DNA from: Burkholderia sp. GAS332
GTDB lineage: Bacteria; Pseudomonadota; Gammaproteobacteria; Burkholderiales; Burkholderiaceae
NCBI GenBank assembly: GCA_900142905.1
Contig: FSRV01000001.1
Coordinates: 1,860,001 to 1,924,000, forward strand
Length of the DNA: 64,000 nucleotides
Direction of reading: 5' to 3'
Shown here piece after piece: positions 44,561 through 54,959 of the stretch. The first letter of the stretch is position 1; each line of letters opens with the position of its first letter. A model generated the notes under the pieces. That model made no database searches. It was not told the origin of the DNA and saw only the letters and a list, made by a program, of their open reading frames with translations. Made by a program: the position numbers and the translations under genes.

Positions 44561-44764
44561 CGCGCCCAGCGCCAGAACGCCTGCCGAAGCTAGCGGATTT
44601 CGTTCGTGCGCGCCGCAGGCGAGTGCCTGGGGTGCCGAACGCTCACAGCACGCTTCATCGTTACGCTTCATGCCCGATCGTCCCCACGTGGACCGCTTTG
44701 AATTCAACGCCGCGCTTCATGCGCGGCATCCCGTATCCGTTCACTTATGACTCCGTCCGCTGCC

Positions 44765-46348
44765 ATGCACGACAAGATCCTGATCCTCGACTTCGGTTCG
44801 CAAGTCACCCAACTGATTGCACGTCGCGTTCGCGAAGCCAACGTGTATTCGGAAATTCATCCTCACGACGTCGACGCGTCGTTCATTCGCGACTTCGCGC
44901 CGAAGGGCGTGATCCTCTCCGGCGGCCCGAGCTCGGTCACCGAAACGGATGCGCCGCGCGTGCCGCAAGTGGTGTTCGAACTCGGCGTGCCGGTGCTGGG
45001 CATTTGCTACGGCATGCAGGCGATGGCCGAGCAGCTCGGCGGTAAGGTCGATATCGGCCACCTGCGTGAGTTCGGCTACGCCGAAGTGCGCGCGCGCAAC
45101 CATACGAGCCTGCTCGAAGGCATCAGCGACTTCACCACGCCGGAAGGTCACGGCATGCTGAAGGTGTGGATGAGCCACGGCGACAAGGTGCTCGAAATGC
45201 CGCAGGGCTTCCAACTGATGGCATCGACGGAATCGTGCCCGATCGCGGCGATGGCCGACGAGCAGCGCCATTTCTACGGTCTGCAATGGCACCCGGAAGT
45301 CACGCACACCGTGCAGGGCCGCGCGATGCTCGAACGTTTCGTGCTGCAGATTTGCGGCGCGAATCCCGACTGGGAAATGGGCCATTACATCGACGAAGCG
45401 GTCGCGAAGATTCGCGAGCAGGTCGGCAACGAGCATGTGATTTTGGGCTTGTCGGGCGGCGTGGATTCGTCGGTGGCGGCGGCGCTGTTGCATCGCGCGA
45501 TTGGCGATCAACTGACCTGCGTGTTCGTCGATCACGGCCTCTTGCGGTTGAACGAAGCCGAGCAGGTGATGGCCACTTTCGCCGATCACCTCGGCGTGAA
45601 GGTGATCCACGTCGACGCGAGCGAAGTGTTCCTGTCGAAGCTGGCCGGCGTGACCGATCCGGAAGCGAAGCGCAAGATCATCGGCGCGGAATTCGTCGAA
45701 GTGTTCCAGACCGAAGCCAACAAGCTGACCGATGCGAAGTGGCTTGCGCAAGGCACGATCTATCCGGACGTGATCGAATCGGCCGGCAAGGGTAAGAAGG
45801 CCACGCAGACCATCAAGAGCCATCACAACGTGGGCGGCCTGCCTGAGACGCTGAATCTGAAGCTGCTCGAGCCGCTGCGCGAACTGTTCAAGGATGAAGT
45901 GCGCGAACTCGGCGTGAAGCTCGGTTTGCCGCCGGCGATGGTGTATCGCCACCCGTTCCCGGGCCCGGGTCTGGGCGTGCGGATTCTTGGCGAAGTGCGC
46001 CGCGATTTCGCCGACCTGCTGCGTCGCGCGGACGCGATTTTCATCGAGACGCTGCGCACCTTTATCGACAAGGAGAGCGGCAAGTCCTGGTATGACTTGA
46101 CGAGCCAGGCGTTTGCGGTGTTCCTGCCGGTGAAGAGCGTCGGCGTGATGGGTGATGGCCGGACTTATGAGTACGTCGTTGCGCTGCGCGCTGTGCAGAC
46201 GCTGGACTTCATGACCGCGCATTGGGCACATCTGCCGCACGAGTTGCTGGGGCATGTGTCGAACCGGATCATTAATGAAGTGCGCGGGATTAACCGGGTG
46301 GTTTATGACATCTCGGGGAAGCCGCCGGCGACGATTGAGTGGGAGTGA
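44765..46348 (+). CDS. guaA: GMP synthase (glutamine-hydrolysing)
   Basis: Converts XMP to GMP using glutamine and ATP. The 527-residue enzyme has an N-terminal class I glutamine amidotransferase with the nucleophile in [13 protein letters not shown] and the His-Glu pair in [11 protein letters not shown]. The ATP pyrophosphatase has P-loop [16 protein letters not shown], and the C-terminal dimerisation domain ends [38 protein letters not shown] at 44765 is the usual start; an in-frame ATG at 44747 is also possible, and neither has a strong ribosome binding site. Its 3' end is a known integration site for genomic islands in other bacteria, which matters for the sequence that follows. Confidence 0.97.
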
Positions 46349-46414: not shown

Positions 46415-46444
46415 GCTATTGTCCAATAAGATTCGTTGCGGTCT

Positions 46445-46829
46445 ACGAAGCTTGACCGCCCGGAACTGACGTCGGCGAAGATCATCGTCTCGGGTGGCCG
46501 TGGTCTGGGCAACGGCGAGAGCTACACGAAGGAGCTCGAACCGCTGGCGGACGAGTTGAACGCAGCACTCGGCGCATCACGCGCAGCAGTCGACGCGGGC
46601 TTCGTGCCGAACGACTATCAGGTCGGCCAGACCGGCCAGATCGTCGCGCCGCAACTGTACGTGGCAGTCGGCATGTCGGGTGCGATCCAGCATCTGGCCG
46701 GCATGAAGGACTCGAAGGTCATCGTCACGATCAACAAGGACCCGGAAGCGCCGATTTTCAGCGTCGCCGATTATGGCCCTGGTGGGCGAGCTGTTCACGC
46801 TCGTGCCGGAACTCCAGCGTGCGATCTAA
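46445..46829 (+). pseudogene. etfA: Electron transfer flavoprotein alpha subunit, 3' fragment with frameshift
   Basis: Only the C-terminal FAD-binding third of EtfA is present: [20 protein letters not shown], then [40 protein letters not shown] and [20 protein letters not shown]. After that an extra C within 46777-46779 shifts the frame. The correct ending [17 protein letters not shown] continues in the next frame to a TAA at 46827-46829. There is no N-terminal part and no etfB. A functional copy must be elsewhere. The fragment marks a rearrangement next to guaA. Confidence 0.88.
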
Positions 46830-47350
46830 GCGCGATGAAGCGAACTGGGGCGCAGCCGCCGAGCAGTCGCTGGCCAACATCCGGCAGATCCTGGCTGCCC
46901 GCGCCGGTCGCCGGTCGCCTGGATCTTACCGTGCCGGTCTCCAGCAGGTGGGTGACGAAGGCGTGCCGCAGCGAATGCGGCGCGATGGGTTTCTGGATAC
47001 CGCTGCGCTGGCGCACGATGCGGCAAGCCAGCGCTACTGGGGACCGGGTGATTAGGGTGCCCGGGGATGTCGCCCGGGAATAGCCACTCCTCGGGATGAG
47101 CGTCGTGCCAGTACAGCCGCAGGATCTCGAGCAGCCGCGGCGACAGCATCACATAGCGATCCTTACGATTTTTACCCTGAGTCACGCGAATCACCATGCG
47201 CTGGCTATCAATATCGGTGACCTTCGGGTGCATGACTTCCGACACGCGCAGCCCGGCCGCGTAGGCGGTCATCAGGATCGTGCGCTGCTTGAGGCTGGCG
47301 ATCGACTTGAAGAAGGTGGTGATCTCCTCCAGGCTCAGGACGGCCGGCAG
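46826..47350 (-). pseudogene. Tyrosine recombinase/integrase, multiply frameshifted
   Basis: The 5' part reads LPAVLSLEEITTFFKSIASL, then MTAYAAGLRVSEV, IDSQRMVIRVTQGKNRKDRY, LSPRLLEILRLYW and [12 protein letters not shown]. The frame then shifts, and the neighbouring frame carries [20 protein letters not shown], the catalytic HxLRH box. The region that should hold the last His and the tyrosine nucleophile is scrambled, so it is inactive. The N-terminal DNA-binding part is also missing. It resembles the integrases found with IS91-type elements. It abuts the etfA fragment tail to tail. Confidence 0.88.
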
Positions 47351-47388: not shown

Positions 47389-47472
47389 TCAGCGCGATCG
47401 TCTGGTGAGCAGCTTGTCCTTCATGCGCTTGAAGAAGGCGTCCGGGACCAGGCCGCCGCGCCGCAACTTCAT
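47389..47472 (-). other. 27-codon ORF at the left end of the duplicated promoter
   Basis: Reads MKLRRGGLVPDAFFKRMKDK, then LLTRRSR and stop. Its ATG sits at the edge of the promoter copy whose twin flanks the LysR gene, so it may be the leftover start of a lost divergent gene. No homology recognised. Confidence 0.3.
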
Positions 47473-47543
47473 GTATTCCAGAATCGTATAGATAGAGCGT
47501 TATTTTTCATTATAAAGGCATGACGATCGTCGCTAGTATGCAG
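47471..47543 (+). promoter_or_regulatory. Promoter/operator copy A, upstream of uxuA
   Basis: A 73-bp segment that aligns without gaps to 52143-52215 (57 identical positions by hand count). It includes a 20-bp identical core at 47497-47516 (GCGTTATTTTTCATTATAAA). A TAGTAT -10-like box lies at 47534-47539 and a CGATCG palindrome at 47524-47529. It lies about 150 bp before the uxuA GTG. The match to the LysR-flanking copy implies control by that regulator. Confidence 0.75.
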
Positions 47544-47694: not shown

Positions 47695-48753
47695 GTGAAA
47701 ATGACCTTTCGCTGGTATGGCGACACGGACCCCGTGCCGCTCGCTTACATCCGTCAGATTCCCGGCATGGTCGGGGTCGTCTCGGCCATCTATGACGTGC
47801 CTGTGGGCGACGCGTGGCCGATCGACAGGATCCTGTCGCTGAAGGAGAAGATAGAGGCTCACGGCCTGACGCTGGACGTGATCGAAAGCGTGCCGGTCCA
47901 CGAGGACATCAAGCTCGGAAAACCGGCGCGCGACACGCTCATCGCCAACTACGGCCAGACGCTGCGTCACCTCGGCGCCTGCGGCGTCGAGGTGGTCTGC
48001 TACAACTTCATGCCGGTTTTCGACTGGACCCGCACCTCGCTGGAAATGCACCTGCCCGATGGATCGACGACGCTCGCGTTCGACACGCGAGCGATTCGTG
48101 AACTCGACGTCAGCCAGGGTATCCAGCTGCCCGGCTGGGACGCGAGCTATCGGCCCGAGCAATTGAAAGCCCTGTTGCGCGACTACGAAGCGCTTGACGA
48201 AGCCGGTCTCTGGGCCAATCTCGACTACTTCCTGCGCGCGATCATTCCGGTGGCCAAAGAAGCCGGCATCAAGATGGCGATCCACCCCGACGATCCGCCA
48301 CGGCCGATTTTCGGGCTGCCGCGCATCGTCAAGAATCGTGCTGACCTGCAGCGCGTGCTGGCTATCGTCGACGATCCCGCCAACGGCCTGACGCTGTGTT
48401 CGGGCTCGCTGGGCGCGGACCTGCAGAACGATATTCCGGCACTCGTGCGCGAGTTCGGTGCGCGTGGCCGGATTCATTTTGCACACCTGCGTAACGTGCA
48501 AGTCAATGCGGCGGGCGATTTTCATGAGACCTCGCATCGCTCGGCCGACGGCTCGCTCGACATGGCGGAAATCGTCAAGGCCTACTTCGAAACCGGCTTT
48601 GAAGGCTATGCCAGGCCCGACCATGGGCGAATGATCTGGGGTGAAACGGGCCGCGCTGGCTATGGGTTGTTCGACCGTGCGTTGGGTGCGGTCTACCTGA
48701 ACGGCATCTGGGAGGGCCTCGCCAAACATCCGGCCGATCATGCGGCTGAGTAA
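47695..48753 (+). CDS. uxuA: D-mannonate dehydratase
   Basis: Dehydrates D-mannonate to 2-keto-3-deoxygluconate in hexuronate breakdown. The 352-residue TIM-barrel metalloenzyme begins [20 protein letters not shown] and has [48 protein letters not shown] (metal His) and [12 protein letters not shown]. Near the end is [20 protein letters not shown]. The GTG at 47695 follows GAGGAGGAG. The gene overlaps the next one by 14 bp. First gene of the uxuA-uxuB-iolB unit. Confidence 0.95.
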
Positions 48754-50218
48754 TGCCTGCCTGGCTTCGCTCGCAGCGCGCACTGCTGGCGAAGTCGTCG
48801 TTCCCGCCTACGATCGCGCGAGCCTTGCACCGGGCATTGTCCATCTGGGCCTCGGGGCGTTTCATCGCGCGCACCAGGCCGTGTACACCGAGCACACGTT
48901 GCGCGCTGGCGATCACCGCTGGGGCATCGTCGGCGTGTCGTTGCGGCGTGCGGACACGTCGGAGGCGCTCACTCCGCAAGATCATCTGTATGCCGTGGAT
49001 GTGCGCGACGGCACCGCGGATTCGTTGCAGGTGGTCGGTGCGCTGATCACTTCGCTGGTCGCGCCGCAGTCGCCCGCCGCCGTGCTCGATGCGATGACCG
49101 ATCCGCGCTGCCATATCGTCAGCTTGACGATCACCGAGAAAGGCTATTGCCGCAATCCGGCCAGCGGCGTATTGCAGTTCGATCATCCCGACATTGACCA
49201 TGATCTGCGCGAGGCCGCCGCGCCGCGTAGCGCGATCGGCTTCGTCGTACGCGCGCTGGCGCTGCGCCGCGCGGCCGGTGTGGGCCCGTTTACCGTGCTG
49301 TCGTGCGACAACCTGCCGTCCAACGGCGACACGATGCGCGCGTTGACGCTGGCGTTCGCGCGCAAAGCGGATCCTCTGCTGGCCGACTGGATCGAGCTAG
49401 AGGGCGCATTTCCCAACACGATGGTGGATCGGATCGTGCCGCTGACCACAGGCGCCGATCGCATGCGCGTAGCAAAGCAACTCGGTGCCGACGATGCGTG
49501 GCCGGTGATGACCGAGCCGTTCTCGCAATGGGTGATCGAGGACCGCTTCGCGGGACCGCGGCCGGCGTGGGAGTGTGCAGGCGCGACGCTCGTGGGTGAC
49601 GCGCGTCCCTATGAGCAGGCCAAATTGCGGATGTTGAACGGCGCGCATTCGGTGCTCGCGTACCTCGGGTCGCTGATCGGCTATGACACCGTCGATCAGG
49701 CGATCGGCGCGCCGGCGGTGCTGAACTTTGTCGAAAGCATGTTGCGCGACGAGGTGGAGCCGACGCTGTCGCGACCCGCTTTGGCCACCTATCGCACTGA
49801 ACTGTTCGCGCGTTTTCGCAACACCGCGCTCGATCACCGCTTGCAACAGATCGCGACCGACGGCTCGCAGAAACTGCCACAGCGCTGGCTGGAAAGCGTG
49901 CGCGCCAACCTGAAAAGCGGCGCGCCGACCGAACGTCTCGCCTTTGCGCTGGCCGTCTGGATCGCTTACCTGAGCGGACAGGACGAGACAGGGCGCACTT
50001 ACATCATCGCGGATCCGCTCGCCGACACCCTGACCGAGGCGGTCCGCTCGACCTTGCCAGCGGATGCAGTTGATGGGGTACGGAGCCTGCTCGAAATCGA
50101 GTCGATTTTCGGTTGCGATCTGCGCGCGCACCCGCGCTTCGTCGCGCAAGTCGCGCGCCATCTGAATGCGATTCGCACACAAGGCGTCGTCAAAGCAATG
50201 GGCGCTTTTGCCGCTTGA
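48740..50218 (+). CDS. uxuB: Mannitol dehydrogenase-family oxidoreductase, probable fructuronate reductase
   Basis: NAD-dependent polyol/uronate dehydrogenase, 492 residues. The N-terminal nucleotide-binding domain contains [19 protein letters not shown]. The family catalytic pattern K-x4-N-x2-H is seen in [30 protein letters not shown] and [14 protein letters not shown] are also typical. The family includes mannitol, arabinitol and tagaturonate dehydrogenases; coupling to UxuA by a 14-bp overlap argues for reduction of D-fructuronate to D-mannonate. The ATG at 48740 gives [12 protein letters not shown]. Confidence 0.88.
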
Positions 50219-50287
50219 GGCCATTCAGGTGACCGCCGCGACTGCCGCGTTCTGCCGGTTAGCAAACCTTAATAATTGGAGGAAGAC

Positions 50288-51118
50288 ATGAGCGACCTGC
50301 TCGTCAAACCGTCAAAGCATGCCGAAGACGGCCAGATCATCCATATCACGCCGGAGAGCGCCAACTGGAAATACGTCGGCTTCGATGTTTTCGACCTGAA
50401 GCCTGGCGTGACAGTTACTCGTGGGACGGGCGATCGCGAAGTCGTGGTCGTGCTCGTCAGGGGGCACGCAACAGTGGGTTGCGAAGGGCTCGCGAGCCGC
50501 GCGATCGGCGCTCGGATGTCGCCGTTCGATGGCGCGCCATGGTCCATGTACGTGCCACCGCATACGCGCTACACGATCGTGGCCACGGACGACGTCGAAC
50601 TCGGCATCTGCTCCGCGCCCGCGAAGGGCGGTCTGCCGCCGCGCTTCATTGCACCTGACGAGGTCAAGCAGGAAACCCGCGGCGCTGGCGCCAACCTGCG
50701 TCACGTGCGCCACATCCTTCCCGAAACCGAGCCGGCGGAGAGCTTGCTGGTGGTGGAATCGGTGACGCCGGCGGGCAACTGGTCGAGCTACCCGCCGCAT
50801 CGGCACGATACCGACGATGGCGAGCAGCAGACCTATCTCGAGGAAACCTATTACCACCGCGTCTCGCCGCCGCAGGGCTTCGCGATTCAGCGCGTCTATA
50901 CCGACGACCGCAGTCTCGACGAAACGCTCGCGGCGTACGACAAGCATGTCGTGCTGGTGCCGCGCGGCTATCACCCGGTTGCCGCCGCGCACGGCTACGA
51001 TCTCTACTACCTGAATGTGATGGCCGGTCCGCGCCGCGCCTGGCACGTACATAACGAGCCGGCTCATGAATGGTTACACCAACCCGGCGCAGGCGTCGCG
51101 GTGGACGGCGCGCGCTGA
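50288..51118 (+). CDS. iolB: IolB-family 5-deoxy-glucuronate isomerase, possibly acting on a hexuronate
   Basis: A bicupin of the KduI/IolB family, 276 residues. IolB hallmarks are NWSSYPPHRHDTDDGEQQTY with metal-binding His, LEETYYHRVSPPQGFAIQRV, YTDDRSLDETLAAYDKHVVL, VPRGYHPVAAAHGYDLYYLN and HNEPAHEWLHQ. IolB normally isomerises 5-deoxy-glucuronate in inositol degradation, but no iolA, C, D, E or G is present here. The neighbours are uxuA and uxuB, and no uxaC is seen. An aldose-to-ketose step on glucuronate is the missing reaction. The ATG at 50288 follows GGAGGAAG. That it is IolB-family is firm; the substrate is inferred. Confidence 0.9.
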   Translation: MSDLLVKPSKHAEDGQIIHITPESANWKYVGFDVFDLKPGVTVTRGTGDREVVVVLVRGHATVGCEGLASRAIGARMSPFDGAPWSMYVPPHTRYTIVATDDVELGICSAPAKGGLPPRFIAPDEVKQETRGAGANLRHVRHILPETEPAESLLVVESVTPAGNWSSYPPHRHDTDDGEQQTYLEETYYHRVSPPQGFAIQRVYTDDRSLDETLAAYDKHVVLVPRGYHPVAAAHGYDLYYLNVMAGPRRAWHVHNEPAHEWLHQPGAGVAVDGAR

Positions 51119-51134: not shown

Positions 51135-52130
51135 TCAGTCGCTGTCGGCGTCGGGGCCTTGGGTGTCGAATCCGGCGGCCTCGCGCAGCGCTTGCAGCAT
51201 CGCCCGCGCACCCGGTGAGAGCCTGTCGCCGCGCCGTGTGACGATGCCCGCCGGTCCAAGCTTCAGATCGAGTTCGAACGGTAGCGGTTCAAGCGCGCCG
51301 GCAATGCAATACGGCCGCACCGGCTCGCGCGCAAGCGGCGCGATCATATCGCTCATCTGCAGCAGACTCGTGATGACAGGCAGCGATGAACTCTCCACCA
51401 CATCCGTCGGCAACGCGAGCTGCCGTTCGAGAAAAAGTTGCGTGAACTGATTACGCATCACGTTGCCTTTCGGCGGCAAGATCCAGGTTTGCGGCGCCAG
51501 TTCGTCCCAGCTCAGAGCCTTGCGCTTGACGAGCGGGTGGCCAACGCGAGCGAACAGCGCGTGCTGTGCTTCCGCGAGCGGGGCGTAGTGCAGTTCCGCC
51601 AGATCGTCCGGATTGCGGATTCGCGCGACGATCATATCCAGCTTGCCTTCCTGCAGACGCTGCACCAGCACCTCGCTGAACTCCATCTCGATGTTGACGC
51701 GAATCTGCGGAAAGCGCTTCTTGAGCAGCGCCACAGCTTGCGGCACGAGGTTGGTGGCCGCCGTGACCTCGGTGCCGATCATCGCCTGCCCGGTCAGGCC
51801 GGCTTTGAGCGCGGACACTTCGTCGTACGCGTGCTGCAACTCCGCCAGCACGCTGCGTGCATGGCGGATCAGCACCTCGCCGTACCAGGTGGGCTCGACC
51901 CCGCGGGGATGCCGTTCGAACAATTGCACACCCATCGTGTCTTCCAGTTCCCGGAGCAACTTGGTCGCCCCGGGCTGCGTCATGTGCGCGGCGTCCGCCG
52001 CGCGCAATACCGAGCGATGGGTGTCGAGCTGAACGATCAGGGCCAATTGGCGCGTCTTCAGACGCGTGGGGTCGAAGTGGCCCGTCGCGATCGCCCCCAC
52101 GCCGATATCAGGATGAATGGCTGAGGTCAC
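51135..52130 (-). CDS. LysR-family transcriptional regulator of the uronate cassette
   Basis: A 331-residue LysR protein. The N-terminal winged helix-turn-helix contains RSVLRAADAAHMTQPGATKL and LLRELEDTMGVQLFERHPRG. An effector-binding domain runs from about residue 110 (GQAMIGTEVTAATNLVPQAV). The N-terminus is about 25 residues longer than typical. The GTG at 52130 follows GGAGA. It converges with iolB and is divergent from the M24 gene across promoter copy B, the normal place for a LysR operator. GbpR-like regulators of sugar and sugar-acid genes have similar N-termini. Confidence 0.92.
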   Translation of the reverse strand: MTSAIHPDIGVGAIATGHFDPTRLKTRQLALIVQLDTHRSVLRAADAAHMTQPGATKLLRELEDTMGVQLFERHPRGVEPTWYGEVLIRHARSVLAELQHAYDEVSALKAGLTGQAMIGTEVTAATNLVPQAVALLKKRFPQIRVNIEMEFSEVLVQRLQEGKLDMIVARIRNPDDLAELHYAPLAEAQHALFARVGHPLVKRKALSWDELAPQTWILPPKGNVMRNQFTQLFLERQLALPTDVVESSSLPVITSLLQMSDMIAPLAREPVRPYCIAGALEPLPFELDLKLGPAGIVTRRGDRLSPGARAMLQALREAAGFDTQGPDADSD

Positions 52131-52142
52131 GATGTCGTCTCC

Positions 52143-52215
52143 ATGTATTCCATATCGATATAGATTTTGCGTTATTTTTCATTATAAAAGAATATCGATC
52201 GATTCTACTATGCAG
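52143..52215. promoter_or_regulatory. Promoter/operator copy B, between the LysR and M24 genes
   Basis: The twin of 47471-47543. It contains two AT-rich palindromes, ATATCGATAT at 52152-52161 and ATCGATCGAT near 52195-52204, spaced as LysR recognition and activation sites often are. A TACTAT -10-like box at 52206-52211 points toward the M24 gene, and TATAAT on the minus strand (52181-52186) points toward lysR. The 20-bp core 52169-52188 is identical to copy A. Confidence 0.75.
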
Positions 52216-52317
52216 AAGACGTCCTGCATTCCAAGGCGGGGCGGATTCCCATCACAGGCATCGACACCGGCTGCATCCAGCATCTGCGCATGCAGCCGCA
52301 CAGGAGACGACGAAGCA

Positions 52318-53484
52318 ATGAACACCCGCACCGCAGACATCCCGCCGGAAGGCATCGCGACCGACGAGTTCCTGGGCCGCGTCGCCAAGGTCCGCAGCGC
52401 ACTCGACAAGGCGGGCCTGGTCGGCCTGCTCGCCTTCGGCGATTGCTGGCGTGGCGCGAACATCGGCTACTTTACCGAGTTCCGTCCACTCGACGGCGTG
52501 TCGGACATCGCCAACGCGATCCTGCTGCTGCCCGTGGACGGCGACCCCGTGCTGTTCGTATCGGATCAATGCTTCGACTACGCGACGAGCGTGACCGCCT
52601 TCGAGGTGCGCAGCCTGCGAGAAGTCACGCAACAGGTGCAGGCATTTTCGGCGCGGCATCGCAGCGGCACGGTCGGCCTCGCCGGCGCCGCCTATATCCC
52701 CGCGGACCTGCTGCAGCGACTGAACGCCGGTCTCGGCGAACTGAAGCTCGAACCGACGATGGTGCTGGCCGAAATCAAGGCGATCAAGAGCGACGCCGAA
52801 GTGGCGCTGATGCGCAAAGCCGCCGCCTTGACCGATTCGGCGATGGCCGCGATTCGCGACGCGCTCGCTGACCGCCGTCCGTACACCGAGCGAGAACTCG
52901 CTCTGATCGCTGACCGCGCGATGCTCGCGGGAGGAGCGGACCGGACCGCCTTCGATTCGATGGTGCAATCCGGTCCGCGCTCGGCGTATAACCTGGCGCG
53001 CCCCACCGATCGCATCCTGCAACCGGGCGACCTGATCATGACCGACATCGGTGCGCGTTATCGTGGATACGTGGCCGATGGCGGACGCGGTTTCACCTAC
53101 GGCCCGGCGAATCCCGAGAAGATGGCGATCGTCGCAGCAGCGGCGCGCGCGGTCGAAGCGGGGCTCGCCGCCGCGCGTCCCGGCATGGCGGCGATGGAAC
53201 TGAACGCGGTGATTCAGCAGGCGCTGGTGAAATCGAACTACGAACAATACTCGAGCGAAGCGCGCGGCCATGGCACCGGTCACGGCACCGGCATGGACCC
53301 CGAAGAAGAAGCGCCGTGGATCGGGCCGGGCAACAAGACCGTGCTGCAGGAAAACATGGTCTTTACCCTGAAGGCGACGATCACGGTGCCGAACGTCGGC
53401 GGTTTGCGCACGGAACGTATCGTGCGGTTGACCTCGGGCGGCGTCGAAACGCTCGACCAGTTCCCGATGGAACTGCACTGGTGA
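52318..53484 (+). CDS. M24-family (pita-bread fold) hydrolase with atypical active site
   Basis: A 388-residue creatinase/aminopeptidase-P-like protein. The N-terminal domain (about 1-150) precedes the pita-bread domain. Two metal-binding Asp are present in MTDIGARYRGYVADGGRGF. GHGTGHGTGMDPEEEAPWI supplies the first His, but the second His of the usual HExP is Glu here. FTLKATI stands where metallopeptidases have T(I/V)EPGI, so one metal-ligand Glu is Lys. LRTERIV keeps the last Glu. It is therefore unlikely to be a standard Xaa-Pro peptidase; creatinase-like or DddP-like chemistry is possible. ATG at 52318 behind AGGAGAC. Same promoter type as uxuA. Confidence 0.85.
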   Translation: MNTRTADIPPEGIATDEFLGRVAKVRSALDKAGLVGLLAFGDCWRGANIGYFTEFRPLDGVSDIANAILLLPVDGDPVLFVSDQCFDYATSVTAFEVRSLREVTQQVQAFSARHRSGTVGLAGAAYIPADLLQRLNAGLGELKLEPTMVLAEIKAIKSDAEVALMRKAAALTDSAMAAIRDALADRRPYTERELALIADRAMLAGGADRTAFDSMVQSGPRSAYNLARPTDRILQPGDLIMTDIGARYRGYVADGGRGFTYGPANPEKMAIVAAAARAVEAGLAAARPGMAAMELNAVIQQALVKSNYEQYSSEARGHGTGHGTGMDPEEEAPWIGPGNKTVLQENMVFTLKATITVPNVGGLRTERIVRLTSGGVETLDQFPMELHW

Positions 53485-53573: not shown

Positions 53574-54959
53574 ATGAATACATCGCCCATTTCATCCGGC
53601 AACGCGCCGCTTATCAGCCGCTCCGCCGTCAACCGTGTGCTGGTCGCTTCGGTGGTCGGGACCGCCATCGAGTGGTACGACTTTTTTCTTTATGCCACCG
53701 CTTCGGCGCTGGTCTTCGCCAAGCTGTTCTTCCCCTCGTTCGATCCGGTGGTCGGCACCATCGCGGCGTTCGGAAGTTTTGCGGTCGGCTATCTCGCGCG
53801 GCCATTTGGCGCCGTGTTTTTCGGGCACTTTGGCGATCGCATTGGCCGTAAGGCGACGCTGGTTGCGACGCTGACGATCATGGGCGTCGGCACCTTCGTG
53901 ATCGGCCTGCTGCCGACTTACGCCTCGATCGGCGTCTGGGCGCCGATCCTGCTGGTGGCGATGCGCTTCCTGCAAGGGCTCGGGGTCGGCGGCGAATGGG
54001 GCGGCGCGGTGCTGATGGTGGTCGAAACGGCGCCGGCCAGGAAGCGTGGCTTCTTCGGCGCGTTCCCGCAATTGGGCGTGCCGCTCGGGCTGATGCTCTC
54101 GACCGCGGTGTTCAAAGCCGTGTCGAGTATGCCGTCGGACGCGTTCTATTCATGGGGATGGCGCCTGCCGTTCCTGCTGAGCGTCGCGCTGATCGCGATC
54201 GGCCTGTTCATTCGCCTGCGCGTCATGGAGTCGCCGGTATTCGAACAGATCAAGGCAAGCAAGCAGGTCGTGAAAGCGCCGCTGATCGAATTGCTGCGCC
54301 GGCATCCGAAAGACCTCGTGCTGACGATCGGCACGCGCTTCGCGGTTGACATCACCTTCAACGTGATCAACGTGTTCGTGCTGGTCTACGGAACGACGCG
54401 GCTCGGCTTGTCGCGTGGACTACTGCTGAACGCCATCATTGTGGGCTGCGCGTTTGCGCTGATCACGCTGCCGCTGTTCGGCAAACTGTCGGACGTGATC
54501 GGACGCCGGACCGTTTTCATGCTCGGCGCGGTGTTCGTGGCGATCTATGGATTCGCGTTCTTTCCGTTGCTTGAGACACGCAATCCGACCTTGATTTTCG
54601 TGGCGTACGTTTGCGGTATCGCGTTGAGCCAGGCGTCGGTGTACGGCGTGCAATCGACGTGGTTTGCGGAACTTTTCGGTACGCGGGTGCGCTATACGGG
54701 TGCTTCGCTGCCGTATCAGATCGCCGGCATCATCACGTCAGGACCGACGCCATTGATCGCCACCTATCTGTTCGCGACGTATGGCCAGACGCTGCCCATT
54801 TCGATCTATATAGCGGCTACAGGGTTGTTGAGCCTCGTGTGCGCGTTTTTCCTCGCGGAGACTTTCAGGCGGGATCTGTCCGCAGAGCCGGAAGATGAAG
54901 CGACCGCAGCGCAGGGCGCGCGTGCGTCCGCTCAGTCGCCGCACCCCCTGCCGCGCTGA
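53574..54959 (+). CDS. MHS-type major facilitator transporter
   Basis: A 461-residue, 12-helix metabolite:H+ symporter. Family motifs: GTAIEWYDFFLYATASALVF in helix 1, the loop 2-3 motif GHFGDRIGRKATL, RFLQGLGVGGEWGGAVLM, GAFPQLGVPLGLML, and the repeat GKLSDVIGRRTVFM. The family moves organic acids and compatible solutes (shikimate, proline/betaine, alpha-ketoglutarate). It lies 89 bp after the M24 gene behind GGGGGGAGAC, so it is probably co-transcribed and may import the sugar acid or the M24 substrate. Confidence 0.92.
   Translation: MNTSPISSGNAPLISRSAVNRVLVASVVGTAIEWYDFFLYATASALVFAKLFFPSFDPVVGTIAAFGSFAVGYLARPFGAVFFGHFGDRIGRKATLVATLTIMGVGTFVIGLLPTYASIGVWAPILLVAMRFLQGLGVGGEWGGAVLMVVETAPARKRGFFGAFPQLGVPLGLMLSTAVFKAVSSMPSDAFYSWGWRLPFLLSVALIAIGLFIRLRVMESPVFEQIKASKQVVKAPLIELLRRHPKDLVLTIGTRFAVDITFNVINVFVLVYGTTRLGLSRGLLLNAIIVGCAFALITLPLFGKLSDVIGRRTVFMLGAVFVAIYGFAFFPLLETRNPTLIFVAYVCGIALSQASVYGVQSTWFAELFGTRVRYTGASLPYQIAGIITSGPTPLIATYLFATYGQTLPISIYIAATGLLSLVCAFFLAETFRRDLSAEPEDEATAAQGARASAQSPHPLPR

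Follow-up and report, generated by a model that had tools for sequence, protein, structure and literature searches.

The window that we analysed, a stretch of 64,000 nucleotides from the soil bacterium Burkholderia sp. GAS332 (C1:1860001-1924000; the genome has 3 contigs and 10.4 Mb), carries a gene, here called iolB', that is ordinary by sequence and unusual by context: it encodes a bicupin of the KduI/IolB family, and we predict that its product is a non-homologous replacement for the uronate isomerase UxaC, sitting on a conserved gene cassette. In our view IolB' is probably a cupin hexuronate isomerase that feeds the reductase UxuB where UxaC would otherwise do so, with D-glucuronate as the likeliest substrate, and the evidence suggests that it was recruited from the inositol enzyme IolB. 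The observations that lead us there are the gene content of the cassette, the conservation of the unit, a shared promoter-like module, the absence of UxaC, the presence of a separate iolB and a set of clade-specific residues. From protein families and gene context we infer the reaction, the substrate, the target of the cassette's LysR-type regulator and the role of its M24-family hydrolase. In the pathway that we propose, a transporter of the metabolite:H+ symporter (MHS) type would import the substrate and the M24 hydrolase might cleave an amide- or N-linked conjugate to set a uronate free; IolB' would then isomerise the aldohexuronate (most likely D-glucuronate), turning the C1 aldehyde into a C2 ketone to give D-fructuronate, which UxuB would reduce to D-mannonate in an NADH-dependent step, and UxuA, in turn, would dehydrate the D-mannonate to 2-keto-3-deoxygluconate. 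This product is perhaps used through the genome's 2-keto-3-deoxy-6-phosphogluconate (KDPG) aldolase (eda; 245 bits against a cut-off of 156).

The open reading frame (ORF) starts with ATG and encodes 276 amino acids, and the same frame is also opened by an upstream TTG at 50276. Its product matches the whole PF04962 KduI/IolB profile at 363 bits, which is its sole Pfam match (the UxaC profile, PF02614, does not match), and scores 334 bits against the NCBIfam equivalog TIGR04378 for IolB, above the cut-off of 205; at E 0.001 it matches no NCBIfam model other than IolB. A first-pass annotation of this DNA had described an IolB-family bicupin following uxuA and uxuB, and so it does, lying directly 3' of both on the same strand with a gap of 69 nt after uxuB, uxuA and uxuB themselves overlapping by 14 nt. 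The unit that it drew was right in these three genes and too small as a whole, missing the LysR regulator, the M24 hydrolase and the MFS transporter, of which lysR lies tail to tail with iolB' and divergent from the M24 gene. That iolB' might be a pseudogene or a chance ORF is ruled out by the profile scores and by purifying selection, with a median dN/dS of 0.135 over 91 pairs (the partial locus L015, described below, was excluded from this calculation and from the tree).

How far does this arrangement extend beyond a single genome? A contig scan for iolB' relatives found 135 related loci, of which the best 80 were kept, and among these 80 there are 11 at 89-95% identity and 69 at 61% or less. 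In those 69 loci (some of the stretches being short) tblastn gave no match to uxuA, uxuB, the LysR gene, the M24 gene or the MFS gene beside the IolB gene, and all but five have matches to iolC, iolD, iolE or an ABC ATPase near it; four of the five adjoin a gene that reads as iolG-like, that is, of inositol-dehydrogenase type, and L046 does not. With P. caribensis (L004) and two genus members (L105, L106) added, there are 14 complete cassettes including that of the window, and L015, which is ended by a contig edge inside iolB', makes a 15th cassette locus; L099-L101 duplicate the genomes of L013, L014 and L012 and were counted once, and L004 and L106 are possibly conspecific. The hosts are mostly labelled Paraburkholderia, with one Caballeronia and one Burkholderia sp. 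In all 14 complete loci the order uxuA-uxuB-iolB'-lysR-M24-MFS is kept, over 7213-7267 bp by matched parts and a span of about 7.5 kb, and the linkage of iolB' to uxuAB is unbroken in 15 of 15, without any match to iolC, iolD or iolE in the cassette loci. The edges are sharp, with similarity setting in some 220-230 bp ahead of uxuA and breaking off at roughly the stop codon of the MFS gene, and the flanks, compared in 12 of the 14 loci (L105 and L106 being left out), are mostly unrelated, save for a downstream block common to L009, L012 and L013 and for single genes common to the window and L008 and to L004 and L008. Within the genus, iolB' occurs in 12 of 144 genomes (89-100% identity, the next best match being 57%). 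All of this looks like an accessory cassette, uxuA-uxuB-iolB' plus lysR-M24-MFS, that moves as a block.

The cassette also appears to carry its own regulation. An operator- or promoter-like module, made up of a GTATTCC...TATAGAT box and, after it, TTATT(C/T)TTCATTATAAA or a near variant, stands upstream of uxuA and again in the divergent gap between lysR and the M24 gene. Aligned without gaps, the two copies are identical at 50 of 65 positions in the window, where shuffles reached at most 35, and at 42-52 of 65 across all 14 complete loci; in the control, which took 100 first-order Markov shuffles for each of 3 loci, the maximum was 36/65. Searched across the window with up to 3 mismatches, a 17-base box pattern found copy 1 alone, copy 2 being further off, so that the likeness resides in the whole module. 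Taken with the position of lysR, the sequences make it probable that the LysR protein controls both transcription units, which would place the M24 hydrolase and the MFS transporter in the same pathway as uxuAB-iolB', and all six genes are probably one regulon.

The claim that no UxaC-like gene is present, made originally for this neighbourhood, holds on a much wider scale. Searches with PF02614 gave no match in the 10.4-Mb genome, none in the 13 cassette-bearing genomes searched and none above the cut-off (one below it) among 299 genomes of the family, a family that seems to lack the classical uronate isomerase. We had to drop the argument that uxuA without UxaC is sufficient evidence of a replacement, since UxuA is present in 47 of these 299 genomes, none of them with UxaC above the cut-off. 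Of the 49 UxuA places in the family we examined 20, three of which were cassettes already known; among the other 17, an MFS gene of cluster c1 is found in 12 and a GntR-like gene (c2) in 11 (both names read from the sequences, with one c1 member profile-scanned), and none of the 17 has a match to the window's uxuB (E 1e-20, over half the length). Direct uptake of mannonate could explain these 17 places, and the replacement argument accordingly rests on the presence of uxuB. GAS332 itself has a second uxuA (C2:779978-781006; L085 7576-11017), accompanied by a D-galactonate-type MFS transporter (TIGR00893, 312 bits, below the cut-off of 395) and a GntR-like gene and lacking a uxuB, a layout that recurs in the family and possibly serves D-mannonate uptake and use. 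Elsewhere in the Burkholderiaceae, three other loci from genomes without UxaC above the cut-off (L095, L096 and L104) have uxuA beside an altronate/galactarate dehydratase-like gene and a zinc alcohol dehydrogenase, and L096 and L104 additionally carry a mannitol-dehydrogenase-family reductase (all names read).

UxuB requires D-fructuronate, and the company that it keeps is therefore of particular interest. A UxuB match at E 1e-100 occurs in 11 of 369 genomes of the class, the window genome included, and in five of the ten others UxaC (PF02614, 243-267 bits) lies directly beside uxuB, once in the order UxaC-UxuB-UxuA. The window genome has a second uxuB (C2:720879-722258, 48% identical to the cassette UxuB) within a cluster (L132 7362-14273; C2 ~720.9-727.8 kb) that encodes ManD (736 bits, cut-off 550), two MFS proteins, including one of MHS type that shares 44% identity with the cassette MFS, and an L-idonate 5-dehydrogenase-like protein (350 bits, below the cut-off of 469). 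The last of these is the likely fructuronate source of that cluster, which is probably a pathway from L-gulonate or L-idonate to mannonate. It resembles the L-gulonate route of Haemophilus influenzae (GulD-UxuB-UxuA), in which a dehydrogenase makes the fructuronate (PMC5788505). The H. influenzae pathway is like the cassette in that UxuB and UxuA are fed fructuronate without UxaC acting; the cassette differs in having no dehydrogenase besides UxuB. With UxaC beside uxuB in some genomes and a dehydrogenase in the second cluster, several uxuB clusters bring along their own likely source of fructuronate, and in the cassette this would be IolB'. Among the matches listed, the closest plasmid uxuB genes outside the cassette are 50-54% identical; five of the 28 listed were examined, of which three lie beside uxuA, one in a gene group with uxaC and one near neither.

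Might IolB' still be a 5-deoxy-D-glucuronate isomerase, acquired as a second IolB for inositol or another 5-deoxy sugar acid, its proximity to uxuAB reflecting chance or a mixed cassette? This is what the sequence alone would say, and the room with which the equivalog cut-off is passed counts against our proposal. We consider it improbable all the same, and one reason is that another gene of the IolB family accompanies iolB' in all the cassette genomes checked. In GAS332 there are two PF04962 genes, the window copy and C1:1358776-1359549, and the latter belongs to an iol cluster (C1 ~1.358-1.368 Mb, 0.55 Mb from the cassette) comprising iolB, iolE, iolD, iolC and sugar ABC transporter genes, names that were read from the ORFs and are backed by tblastn matches of the same proteins near the iolB of other organisms. 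As this cluster has its own iolB, the window copy is an extra one and not obviously needed for inositol. A second IolB (53-56% identity) is present in each of the 12 genus genomes, its iol-cluster position having been checked in the window genome, and Caballeronia telluris has two PF04962 genes. The first-pass annotation had noted no other inositol genes here, which is right for the neighbourhood, the iol cluster lying elsewhere in the genome. The two genome-wide checks that it suggested, for uxaC and for an iol cluster, both favour the assignment that it proposed: uxaC gave no match, and the separate cluster has its own iolB. The lack of iolC, iolD and iolE in the cassettes and the unbroken linkage to uxuAB likewise argue against a 5-deoxy-glucuronate isomerase. 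The two IolB-family proteins of GAS332 are 53% identical, which, together with the separate position of IolB' in the tree, rules out that iolB' arose by simple, recent duplication of the iolB in the iol cluster. In passing, the iolC of the iol cluster carries a C-terminal extension (by ORF reading), and in several bacteria IolC-DUF2090 fusions are described as important for the use of inositol (PMC9007349).

The protein family itself tells a similar story. In the tree, the cassette IolB' proteins form one clade with a support of 100/100 and a stem of 0.66, apart from two Burkholderiaceae iol IolBs, though the deeper forks are weakly supported and the long branch of these two is flagged as possibly misplaced. 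Six residues, C53, V158, K172, P179, E181 and F254, are alike in 67-70 of 70 other IolBs and exchanged in all cassette rows that have a letter at the site (14 or 15 rows), S158, R172 and Q181 being among the cassette residues; these changes at near-invariant positions also speak against a 5-deoxy-glucuronate isomerase. Seven IolB matches that run past a stop were used neither in the initial comparison nor in the tree and, trimmed at the stop, were included in these residue counts. The bicupin fold is present, as are the candidate metal ligands (two His in HxHD, a Glu and a His), which are the same in 84 of 84. The 1,2-isomerisation that IolB performs on 5-deoxy-hexuronates is also that of KduI on 4-deoxy-5-keto-hexuronates, and 5-deoxy-glucuronate differs from glucuronate by the missing 5-OH alone. 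KduI, which works with KduD in pectin and glycosaminoglycan breakdown, shares its Pfam model and fold with IolB' and is represented by PDB 1xru and 7yrs, with an identity of 13-17% in structure alignments; the KduI isomerisation step is also given in PMC6353982. Compared with IolB (TIGR04378; PDB 2qjv, Salmonella IolB-like), then, IolB' is an additional copy that is linked to uxuAB and not to iol genes, and that has a clade and a residue pattern of its own. Compared with UxaC, it is an unrelated protein in a UxaC-type position beside uxuB, and its expected reaction would likewise feed UxuB and UxuA. As a separate observation, some alphaproteobacterial iol clusters have a second, highly divergent IolB-family match (30-34% identity) beside an IolC-like match (L038 10964-11623, L062 10788-11498, L068 11657-12373 and L071 6380-7045).

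Several further points weigh against our proposal. With 89-95% identity among them, the cassette proteins are closely related, and the substitutions that they share were inherited as a single set and do not count as repeated events; moreover, one iol-type IolB, L036, has both R172 and Q181. The UxuB-like protein reaches 414 bits against its best NCBIfam model, the fructuronate reductase NF011611, whose cut-off is 603, although the UxaC-adjacent UxuB relatives scanned, three of the five, also fall below it (439, 477 and 358 bits). There is no UxaC within 1.5 kb of uxuB in the remaining five of the ten genomes mentioned above, where the neighbours are a UxuA match (one), an enolase-superfamily gene (one) and other or unclear genes (three). 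Plain glucuronate could be used without the M24 hydrolase. Finally, the genome has a glucarate dehydratase (880 bits, cut-off 829) that adjoins, by reading, transporter and KdgD genes, and an oxidative glucuronate route may therefore exist, making an isomerase needless for plain glucuronate.

That possible route moves some weight to D-mannuronate or to a conjugate. IolB' could be a hexuronate isomerase for another aldose that gives the same or a related ketose, and where an oxidative route already deals with glucuronate, a different uronate would add more. D-mannuronate, the C2 epimer of D-glucuronate, also isomerises to D-fructuronate, and because UxuB and UxuA need D-fructuronate and D-mannonate alone, they are compatible with such a source; nothing in the six genes indicates alginate, however, and D-galacturonate would require an altronate branch that is absent from the cassette. 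We think it unlikely that either of these is the substrate.

A conjugated or modified uronate is a different matter, since this extends the glucuronate isomerase proposal and does not exclude it: the MHS-type transporter would import the compound, the M24 hydrolase would cleave a C-N bond and IolB' would isomerise the freed, perhaps modified, uronate. Genes for M24, MFS and LysR are in all 14 complete cassettes, with the promoter-like module in common, and the searches made for the M24 protein (96-99% identical to that of the window in 11 other cassettes) gave no close kin outside them. The next best match on plasmids is 31% identical, and none was found in 397 other Pseudomonadota genomes at E 1e-40, with up to 4 candidates per genome scored. 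Aligned with the prolidase 1wy2, it has D243, D254, H322 and E366 at positions that we take to be metal ligands and Lys352 in place of Glu at the fourth, leaving the five-ligand set D, D, H, E, E incomplete; K352 is invariant in 12 of 12 cassette M24 proteins. Metal ligands are missing, too, from some enzymes of the M24 fold whose substrates are small molecules. On the other side, no sequence feature names the substrate, and the predicted M24 structure, built on 12 close sequences, is unusable at a predicted local distance difference test (pLDDT) score of 39.7. We regard the conjugate as a tentative suggestion. It is similarly speculative, and we would be cautious in saying so, that all of this amounts to a new isofunctional family of uronate isomerases, in which an IolB-derived cupin displaced UxaC and, as part of a six-gene cassette that regulates itself, spread in Paraburkholderia and Caballeronia, the cassette living off a conjugated (amide- or N-linked) hexuronate that an orphan, non-standard M24 hydrolase sets free.

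The earlier proposal that IolB' replaces UxaC is thus partly supported, by the conserved linkage, the promoter-like module, the clade substitutions and the exchange of UxaC and IolB' beside uxuB. The precedent that it invoked, an effect of KduI on hexuronate conversion in E. coli, comes from a comparison of cell extracts and of growth, and the authors of that study call direct isomerisation a hypothesis and state that the mode of action of KduI is unclear (PMC3578941), making this an indirect precedent and a further point on the debit side. Among the papers listed from the open-licence literature (titles and the starts of abstracts, with subscription papers outside the scope) we found no description of an IolB-family glucuronate isomerase, which is weak support for novelty. 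Why should it matter? The curated IolB model would label the gene iolB, leaving a gap in the hexuronate pathway of these bacteria. If our proposal is true, the cupin family provides a counterpart to UxaC that is unrelated to it, there is a clean case in which to test the unproven idea that KduI/IolB cupins act on plain hexuronates, and a compact set of genes for using a uronate, or a conjugate of one, is at hand; the cassette also supplies a hydrolase, so far uncharacterised, whose functional context is strong.

Table 1. The six cassette genes and the two promoter-like modules, in window coordinates.
Feature	Position	Strand	Remarks
Operator/promoter-like module, copy 1	47464-47528	+	Precedes uxuA; GTATTCC box from 47473; cassette homology begins here
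uxuA, D-mannonate dehydratase	47695-48753	+	GTG start; PF03786 496 bits; TIGR00695 395 bits, cut-off 200
uxuB-like reductase, mannitol dehydrogenase family, probable fructuronate reductase	48740-50218	+	PF08125/PF01232
iolB', KduI/IolB-family bicupin, predicted hexuronate aldose-ketose isomerase	50288-51118	+	PF04962, TIGR04378
LysR-type regulator	51135-52130	-	PF00126 and PF03466; adjoins module copy 2
Operator/promoter-like module, copy 2	52136-52200	not assigned	lysR/M24 divergent gap; aligned over 14 loci
M24-family hydrolase	52318-53484	+	PF00557 151 bits on longer ORF 52117-53481
MFS transporter, MHS type, probable importer	53574-54959	+	TIGR00883 431 bits, just below cut-off 443

Upstream of the cassette lies guaA (44747-46348, the name read from the sequence), and between the two are an ORF with an FAD domain of electron transfer flavoprotein alpha (ETF-alpha) type (46436-47083, plus strand) and a phage-integrase fragment (46826-47272, minus strand), which look like remnants of an insertion.
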